Assembly (NCBI RefSeq): GCF_001693385.1 | Contig: NZ_CP016428.1 | Location: forward strand, 4,464,001 to 4,528,000 | Source of the DNA: Bradyrhizobium icense | GTDB taxonomy: Bacteria; Pseudomonadota; Alphaproteobacteria; Rhizobiales; Xanthobacteraceae | Reading direction: 5' to 3' | DNA: 64,000 bases | Shown: positions 13,113-22,979 of the stretch, one piece after another | Position numbering within the stretch: position 1 is the stretch's first letter | How the letters are laid out: every line of letters starts with the position of its first letter | The notes under the pieces: model-generated | The model's input: the letters and a program-made list of their open reading frames with translations, nothing else | What the model was told of the DNA's origin: nothing | The model's database searches: none | Translations under genes and position numbers: made by a program

Positions 13113-13193
13113 ATGGGACGAGGAATTCTACTTTGGTTGCTGGGCGTACCTATTCCGGTGATCATTCTATTGTGGCTGTTCTTCGGCCACTGA
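13113..13193 (+). CDS. Very small membrane peptide, 26 aa
   Basis: 'MGRGILLWLLGVPIPVIILL' plus WLFFGH, preceded by GAGGAGGA. Nearly identical short peptides recur across Rhizobiales genomes. The peptide is one transmembrane helix with a PIP kink. Role unknown. Confidence 0.7.
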   Translation: MGRGILLWLLGVPIPVIILLWLFFGH

Positions 13194-21690: not shown

Positions 21691-21719
21691 GTGACAAGCC
21701 CGAATGGCTGGGCTATAGA
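21691..21719 (+). promoter_or_regulatory. Sigma70-like promoter for the aroG leader
   Basis: -35 GTGACA and -10 TATAGA separated by 17 nt. Transcription would be expected to start about 7 nt after the -10, at or next to the leader-peptide ATG at 21727, giving a leaderless or nearly leaderless message. A second TTGACA at 21674 is badly spaced. Confidence 0.7.
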
Positions 21720-21726
21720 GCCAGCC

Positions 21727-21807
21727 ATGATCATGATCGCCGCCAGCAACTTTTGGTATTTTAGCTACGACAGCTCGCTGGCGGTGGGAGGATCGCGCTC
21801 AATCTGA
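21727..21807 (+). CDS. Aromatic-rich leader peptide of the aroG attenuator, 26 aa
   Basis: A short frame, ATG to TGA, whose centre reads Phe-Trp-Tyr-Phe-Ser-Tyr (codons 9-14): five aromatic residues in six, covering all three aromatic amino acids. It lies immediately downstream of a promoter and upstream of a terminator and the DAHP synthase gene. Regulatory leader peptides work by ribosome stalling at scarce charged tRNAs; the product itself is probably dispensable. A second in-frame ATG is two codons downstream. Confidence 0.82.
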   Translation: MIMIAASNFWYFSYDSSLAVGGSRSI

Positions 21808-21855
21808 CGAATTGAAGCATAAGTCCGAACAGCCGCCAGACCTGGCGGCTTTTTT
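21740..21855 (+). promoter_or_regulatory. Transcription attenuator with four pairing segments before aroG
   Basis: Segment 1 CCGCCAGC (21740-21747) is an exact complement of segment 2 GCTGGCGG (21777-21784). Segment 2 can instead pair with segment 3 CCGCCAG (21833-21839), and segment 3 with segment 4 (21842-21850). Pairing 3:4 makes a terminator with a T-run; pairing 2:3 would be the antiterminator. The aromatic codons (21751-21768) lie between segments 1 and 2, so a ribosome stalled there covers segment 1 and frees segment 2. This is the standard amino-acid attenuation geometry. Confidence 0.8.
21831..21855 (+). terminator. Attenuator terminator
   Basis: Stem AGCCGCCA / TGGCGGCT with a GACC loop, followed directly by TTTTTT. 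It sits about 39 nt upstream of the aroG start, where termination would keep RNA polymerase out of the gene when charged aromatic tRNAs are plentiful. Confidence 0.88.
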
Positions 21856-21893
21856 GTTGGCCGGCAGGTTTCCTTCAAACAGGAGCCATAGCC

Positions 21894-22979
<1,086 letters not shown>

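Follow-up and report, generated by a model that had tools for sequence, protein, structure and literature searches.

The attenuators of Escherichia coli pheA (pheL) and trp (trpL) combine leader codons for the product amino acid with alternative helices. Type I DAHP synthase (3-deoxy-7-phosphoheptulonate synthase) catalyzes the first step of aromatic amino acid synthesis, and we take the aroA of the Vibrio aroA-tyrA operon to be a DAHP synthase gene in the naming of the paper that describes it. According to the accessible parts of the respective reports, attenuators have been predicted for Vibrio aroA-tyrA (PMC1173090) and for Shewanella aroF and aroH (PMC2659441), and in Corynebacterium glutamicum a leader peptide with a Phe-Tyr-Phe motif precedes the DAHP synthase gene in the stalling-regulated aroR-aroF system (PMC11802643, PMC4046766). 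The same partly available reports describe aroR-aroF as responsive to Phe limitation and not to Tyr availability (PMC11802643, PMC4046766). A further prediction, uORFC-13-1, places a terminator and a leader ORF containing one or more Phe codons upstream of the DAHP synthase gene aroF, and in the available part of its description the 24 representatives come from Acholeplasma and environmental sequences only (PMC8632094). The TyrR and TrpR regulators of E. coli are reported, in the accessible part of the source, to be absent in bacteria of the classes treated here (PMC5343134).

We found no Rfam family and no paper describing a leader with Phe, Trp and Tyr codons before aroG, in a literature search of partial coverage, and such a description may be in print elsewhere. 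At the gathering threshold, Rfam recognizes only two tRNAs in the window, which is the whole stretch of 64,000 nucleotides of Bradyrhizobium icense DNA analysed here, and nothing in eight relatives; the Phe_leader family (RF01859) scores 21.0 bits against a gathering threshold of 55.

Anatomy of the aroG leader

The window comes from a single-contig genome of 8.32 Mb, and the nearest named relatives of its AroG protein are those of Bradyrhizobium species (83-93% identity). The gene matches TIGR00034 with an E-value of 1.3e-159 and 530.5 bits (cut-off 173.2), and NF006723 with an E-value of 1.2e-165 and 550.6 bits, just below the cut-off of 568. A sequence-only reading had proposed a promoter GTGACA-17-TATAGA before the leader ATG, a 26-residue peptide with Phe-Trp-Tyr-Phe-Ser-Tyr, the alternating pairings 1:2, 2:3 and 3:4 upstream of aroG, and a 3:4 terminator whose T-run lies about 39 nt before the gene. 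All of these features are present in the sequence, and the proposed coordinates were right within a base; the ORF spans 21727-21807, the helices are mutually exclusive by computation, and 38 nt are counted between the end of the T-run and the aroG GTG at 21894. The features are as follows.

21691..21696, + strand: -35 box GTGACA (read from the sequence)
21714..21719, + strand: -10 box TATAGA, separated from the leader ATG by 7 nt
21727..21807, + strand: leader peptide ORF, ATG at 21727, 26 codons, TGA (read from the sequence)
21739..21747, + strand: segment 1 (GCCGCCAGC), partner of segment 2, lineage-specific (pairing computed)
21751..21768, + strand: sensor codons Phe-Trp-Tyr-Phe-Ser-Tyr (read from the sequence)
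21777..21785, + strand: segment 2 (GCTGGCGGT), 5' arm of the antiterminator within the leader ORF (pairing and conservation)
21831..21839, + strand: segment 3 (AGCCGCCAG), common to antiterminator and terminator (pairing and scan)
21843..21850, + strand: segment 4 (TGGCGGCT), 3' arm of the terminator (pairing and scan)
21850..21855, + strand: T-run TTTTTT of the intrinsic terminator (read from the sequence)
21881..21885, + strand: Shine-Dalgarno sequence AGGAG of aroG (read from the sequence)
21894..22979, + strand: aroG, type I DAHP synthase, GTG start, the regulated gene (profile match)

The promoter boxes are separated by a spacer of 17 nt, and the GACA of the -35 box is invariant in all 29 aligned alphaproteobacterial rows; a generic scan reported no promoter at 21691-21719, because it accepts only a second hexamer that ends in T. 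The leader peptide is MIMIAASNFWYFSYDSSLAVGGSRSI, with F9, W10, Y11, F12, S13 and Y14 as its aromatic run. Helix 1:2 joins 21739-21747 with 21777-21785 (9 pairs including one G-U), helix 2:3 joins 21778-21785 with 21832-21839 (8 pairs including one G-U), and hairpin 3:4, the top-ranked site of the terminator scan, joins 21831-21838 with 21843-21850 (8 pairs, loop of 4). Region 21728-21893 folds slightly better than its shuffles (z -1.78; 11 of 200 shuffles equally good), so folding energy alone is weak proof. The exact segment pattern has no second copy in this genome.

Range of the leader

Upstream regions were drawn from relatives, from 80 named loci of public genomes and from further Proteobacteria. 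Removal of regions shorter than 200 nt and of identical copies (L028 and L035 are identical, and L035 is counted under L028) left 186 distinct upstreams of type I DAHP synthase genes out of 192 extracted. The strict test asked for at least four F/W/Y within eight residues of a short ORF and a terminator 30-170 nt on, the relaxed test for an ATG leader with at least four F/W/Y in eight residues and a terminator by a rule allowing longer loops. The thresholds were chosen after the first leaders had been inspected. The relaxed test found leader and terminator in 116 of the 186 upstreams, 39 of them from Bradyrhizobium, in Alpha-, Beta- and some Gammaproteobacteria. Matches to the strict test occurred in 103 of the 186 upstreams, in 4 of 2060 dinucleotide shuffles of those 103, and, when the remaining ORFs of the loci were taken, in 18 of their 965 upstreams. 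Of these 18, 16 are the same aroG leaders viewed from an overlapping ORF, and two remain (L072 and window position 13117). A small hydrophobic ORF MGRGILLWLLGVPIPVIILLWLFFGH with a good Shine-Dalgarno sequence lies at 13113-13193 of the window, and the match at 13117 is its out-of-frame reading. The peptide codons and the 2:3 and 3:4 complementarity are conserved in relatives, one of the two points on which the sequence-only reading had staked its proposal.

The leader is present in all 30 same-genus loci and in 57 of the 78 named loci having enough upstream DNA. It was found in 2 of the 30 best-scoring loci of a phylum search, where most genomes have several DAHP synthases, and in 27 of 49 counted short regions, which is not a rate, the 53 regions taken being mostly hand-picked to spread over family codes. 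Five other alphaproteobacterial genomes have the gene above the family cut-off; four carry the leader (L155-L158), and the fifth (L154) has too little upstream DNA. Named holders include Mesorhizobium, Devosia, Leisingera, Burkholderia, Paraburkholderia, Caballeronia, Cupriavidus, Massilia, Rugamonas, Janthinobacterium, Bordetella, Xanthomonas, Stenotrophomonas, Dyella and Rhodanobacter. By the same test no leader was seen at the Pantoea, Erwinia, Photobacterium, Thauera, Azoarcus and Methylotenera loci. One Undibacterium locus (L094) is without the leader in a branch where the other 10 rows carry it. Outside the Proteobacteria, a type I DAHP synthase gene of an Anaerolineae MAG (L052) is preceded by a long hairpin and an aromatic-rich ORF that includes MSRYFSFFSWYGYFAAGQ; the locus failed the terminator test, was left out of the count and may result from faulty binning.

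In a tree built from 112 of the 140 full-length AroG proteins, with Bradyrhizobium thinned to 10, the leader trait requires 8 changes (5 forced by starred branches), compared with a mean of 36.6 for shuffled labels, none of 500 being as low as 8. Because the tree was made by a quick method and has long branches and a midpoint root, we do not infer from it that the trait arose once or in which direction it was transferred. Of 36 genomes of the genus, 32 contain a single copy of the exact DNA pattern of sensor codons and segments 2 and 3. Two of the others (G015, G032) have neither the pattern nor a type I gene, and two (G006 = L015, G025 = L025) have the leader with changed letters in segment 3. 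The pattern was found in none of 24 other relatives; in three of these (G040, G050, G058) the gene is present and its leader differs in sequence (L159-L161).

The predicted start of the leader transcript

In 72 of the 116 loci, 6-8 nt lie between the leader ATG and the end of the best -10-like box, whereas the spacing in shuffles is spread flat. A leaderless leader had been proposed, and the close spacing predicts one in 38 of 39 Bradyrhizobium loci, but only in 34 of the 77 other members; in the Burkholderiaceae and Oxalobacteraceae rows a TATA-like box is instead seen by eye about 25-40 nt upstream. A Shine-Dalgarno pairing stronger than -5 kcal was found for 9 of the 116 leaders, compared with 106 of the 116 gene starts, and the leader ATG of this genome, at -2.4 kcal, has none, as a leaderless start should. 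Judging from the promoter boxes, the aroG leader transcript probably begins at or beside the leader ATG.

A start-site study of B. japonicum lists, in its accessible part, 192 starts exactly at annotated start codons, and aroG does not appear in the main text that was available (PMC4842269). Upstream of trpEG of the genome studied here (L208), a trpL-like ORF MSTVVTPSRLWWRTS of the leaderless type is seen by eye about 7 nt after a -10-like box; the terminator rule found no terminator there despite the clear trpL, and therefore misses some attenuators.

The aroG leader RNA, by prediction a small mRNA that is leaderless and stops at an intrinsic terminator, resembles rnTrpL of Sinorhizobium meliloti as described in the accessible parts of two reports (PMC10117765, PMC7298713), and the peptide past the aromatic run (SLAxGGSRSI) is kept in Bradyrhizobium. 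Both would fit attenuation combined with an action of the terminated leader RNA or peptide in trans, as for rnTrpL and peTrpL. This addition appears unlikely to us, as the SLAxGGSRSI part overlaps segment 2, whose conservation could explain that of the peptide.

Pairing and conservation of the segments

In the 39-nt window at the end of the aromatic run, an exact GGCGG occurs in 110 of the 116 loci, compared with 13% of shuffled windows, and outside Bradyrhizobium it follows the run in 71 of 77 loci; an exact CCGCC stands in the 5' arm of the terminator in 113 of 116. The 2:3 complementarity beats 95% of shuffles in 83 of the 116 loci and is no better than shuffles in the Devosia-type rows and some others. 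As the segments were located by a GGCGG/CCGCC search with one mismatch allowed, the counts of core pairing are partly built in, including the at least 111 of 116 loci that pair at every core position in both 2:3 and 3:4. Beside the core, observed and shuffled counts, inflated by related sequences, are 100/116 and 89.3 at position -1 and 67 and 53.8 at position +5 for 2:3, and 108/116 and 92.0 at -1 and 114 and 87.9 at +5 for 3:4; further out, the 2:3 flanks are no better than shuffled (42 and 43.8 at -3; 19 and 19.6 at +6). When independent changes were counted on a tree, the partners at position -1 had changed in the same way in 3 of 4 cases for 3:4 and 2 of 5 for 2:3, and at +5 in 2-3 of 5 for 3:4, with no trend for 2:3. 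Linked stem changes in this wider set thus mostly run in the expected direction, but they stem from few independent events, and no sign test on them was significant.

The 29 alphaproteobacterial rows are paired in 100% of the cells for 3:4, 95.3% for 2:3 and 88.1% for 1:2. No pair in them changed on both sides, and there is no covariation because the stems hardly vary. A synonymous-change test of the alphaproteobacterial leader ORFs did not favour synonymous change (11 synonymous and 49 nonsynonymous codon variants). Indels within the leader ORF of that alignment are of 3 or 6 nt except for three of 1 nt, which we attribute to three Devosia-type rows whose reading frame has shifted.

That selection acts on segment 2 as RNA is shown most firmly by its occurrence in three different reading frames (103, 7 and 6 of the 116 loci), coding for different residues in Devosia, Massilia and others. 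Its persistence despite a frame change, together with the 1:2 hairpin of this genome, would also fit another kind of switch for which the ORF is secondary, such as an RNA that senses an aromatic metabolite as a riboswitch or with the help of a bound protein. We consider this very improbable, as the aromatic codon run lies at a near-constant distance from segment 2, no conserved unpaired core was seen outside the coding run, and no Rfam family is above its cut-off.

The 1:2 pairing had been put forward as part of the attenuator. It is strong in this genome, where the free RNA is computed to fold into 1:2, but it is not general, beating 95% of shuffles in only 21 of the 116 loci. One central 1:2 pair is broken in 16 of the 29 alphaproteobacterial rows, and no pair shows a compensatory change. 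The common core of the attenuator is therefore made up of helices 2:3 and 3:4 and the ribosome, with 1:2 as a local addition.

An HdeD-like upstream neighbour was matched in 34 of 87 leader loci, all of them Bradyrhizobium, so that elsewhere the leader sits with aroG beside other DNA. A rival reading, in which the hairpin merely ends an upstream gene such as the HdeD-like one and the aromatic reading frame is unrelated or due to chance, is hardly credible: terminators between genes are common, with 9 terminator-like sites in 3 kb where 2.3 are expected, but leader and terminator stay with aroG in the absence of an HdeD-like gene from the flank examined (53 of 87 loci), shuffles match at the rate of 4 in 2060, and segments 2 and 3 are complementary.

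Proposed model of the switch

We think that the aroG leader is very probably a ribosome-mediated transcription attenuator that would be set by the supply of charged tRNA-Phe, tRNA-Trp and tRNA-Tyr. Its anatomy and conservation, the mutually exclusive pairing (by computation only) and the geometry of the stall site are observed here. The sequence itself provides an intrinsic terminator before the structural gene and a conserved short ORF with codons for products of the pathway; an antiterminator that is exclusive with the terminator and freed by a stalled ribosome was obtained by computation only.

For the start site, the ribosome stalling, the kinetic order and the starvation response we infer the following course. 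Transcription would begin at or beside the AUG of the leaderless 26-codon ORF. A shortage of charged tRNA for any one of the three amino acids would stall the ribosome at F9-Y14, and segment 2 just ahead of it could pair with segment 3 before segment 4 is made, allowing the polymerase to enter aroG. If all three are plentiful, the ribosome would cross segment 2 while segments 3 and 4 are made, and 3:4 would terminate transcription. In this lineage, 1:2 may pair in ribosome-free RNA or after the passage of the ribosome, which would give termination by default.

The stalled state was mimicked by masking the RNA to the last aromatic codon and folding it as made up to segment 3, which gave a 2:3 probability above 0.5 in 111 of the 116 loci; in a shuffled-middle control, segment 3 found some partner with a mean probability of 0.65 (above 0.5 in 75%), compared with 0.98 observed. 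Masking of segment 2 gave a 3:4 probability above 0.5 in 113 of 116 loci. RNA without a ribosome favours 2:3 in 68 of the 116 loci, not in this genome (0.01), and default termination is thus not general. When the full-length RNA was folded to equilibrium and segment 2 left unmasked, 3:4 prevailed in 90 of 116 loci and reached 0.39 in this genome, so that the switch must be at least partly kinetic.

GGCGG begins 11 nt past the last aromatic codon in 72 of the 116 loci (35 of the 77 outside Bradyrhizobium) and 8-21 nt past it in all, which is roughly the place of the front edge of a stalled ribosome. In 65 of the 116 loci, the start of GGCGG and the stop codon are 25 nt apart. A weak point of the model is that the stop codon lies about 20 nt past segment 2, so that a ribosome waiting there does not obviously cover segment 2, which is covered only while the ribosome passes.

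Amino acids probably sensed by the leader

Phe, Trp and Tyr are all present in the run of 91 of the 116 leaders, and 25 have Phe and Tyr only, including Janthinobacterium and Rugamonas rows; sensing of all three aromatic amino acids therefore fits this genome and not every member. The leaders use Phe codons in the numbers TTT 274 and TTC 78 (116 leaders), in contrast to TTT 69 and TTC 459 in 89 aroG genes, and the TTT excess could possibly reflect selection for slow codons or for unstructured RNA.

A second DAHP synthase and the possible role of aroG

The sequence-only reading further suggested that the leader links the whole pathway to aminoacyl-tRNA supply. This was too strong, as the genome also has a class II DAHP synthase without an aromatic leader. 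Among the Alphaproteobacteria sampled, a type I DAHP synthase is rare, being above the cut-off in 6 of 190 genomes, this one included, and two genomes from other genera of the same family (G324, G516) gave no type I match. The class II enzyme is above the cut-off in 38 of 41 genomes searched, again including this one, and the same test found an aromatic leader in none of 13 class II upstreams. Because the class II enzyme is widespread and without such a leader, aroG may be read as a second enzyme for entry into the pathway, one that can be adjusted and that supplements an enzyme free of this kind of attenuation. In ten of the 13 class II upstreams (L112-L118, L120-L122), a hairpin resembling a terminator lies 37-40 nt ahead of the point where the family match begins, and in the rows read a conserved stretch TGTGTATAAG stands before the hairpin without an aromatic leader, with the row of this genome (L162) being different. 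No leader was seen in 450 nt before pheA of this genome, and a search of a plasmid collection gave no match.

The attenuator would be a control point for entry into the shikimate pathway in classes from which TyrR and TrpR are reported to be absent, and it is directly testable. If the reading is true, one short peptide would serve as a sensor of three amino acids, and the differences between lineages (Phe, Trp and Tyr or Phe and Tyr; leaderless or not) would form a natural experiment on attenuator tuning. The leader is broad in range, easily tested and missing from the RNA-family library; it could become an RNA family entry, which would improve the annotation of DAHP synthase upstreams. A wider picture, to which we give rather little credence, is that of one old RNA family that in Alpha-, Beta- and some Gammaproteobacteria has remained associated with type I DAHP synthase, which would sense the aromatic amino acids in one leader where TyrR and TrpR are not used, and whose leaderless RNA or peptide would have a second job in trans.

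Comparison with known attenuators

The aroG leader is a well-supported attenuator of a known kind with a classical mechanism, whose association with this gene was not found described for these Proteobacteria. Like pheL and trpL of E. coli, it combines leader codons of product amino acids with alternative helices, but segment 2 lies inside the leader ORF, unlike in these two and in Rfam Phe_leader, and three amino acids are involved. With the trpL-trpE(G) leaders of Sinorhizobium meliloti and Bradyrhizobium, as far as the available parts of the sources describe them, it shares a leaderless ORF (predicted here), stalling codons and a terminator before a biosynthetic gene. The trpL of this genome, MSTVVTPSRLWWRTS, is close to the B. 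japonicum sequence MSTAVAPARLWWRTS given in the accessible part of its report (PMC7298713). These leaders sense Trp only, whereas the gene, the peptide and the stems are different here.

The Vibrio and Shewanella predictions likewise concern attenuation before a DAHP synthase gene in Proteobacteria. Their descriptions, in the parts available, set them apart by lineage and operon and name no leader peptide with Phe, Trp and Tyr; the one locus named as Vibrionaceae in our set (Photobacterium, L110) has no leader by the test. Common to uORFC-13-1, in the accessible description, is an ORF with Phe codons and a terminator before DAHP synthase; the structure described there, by which the two were compared, differs. 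Similar in having an aromatic leader peptide before the DAHP synthase gene is aroR-aroF of C. glutamicum, again according to the available parts of the reports. Compared by these descriptions, that system belongs to an Actinobacterium and has a motif without Trp, whereas the aroG leader joins Phe, Trp and Tyr codons with the GGCGG/CCGCC/GGCGG segments in Proteobacteria.
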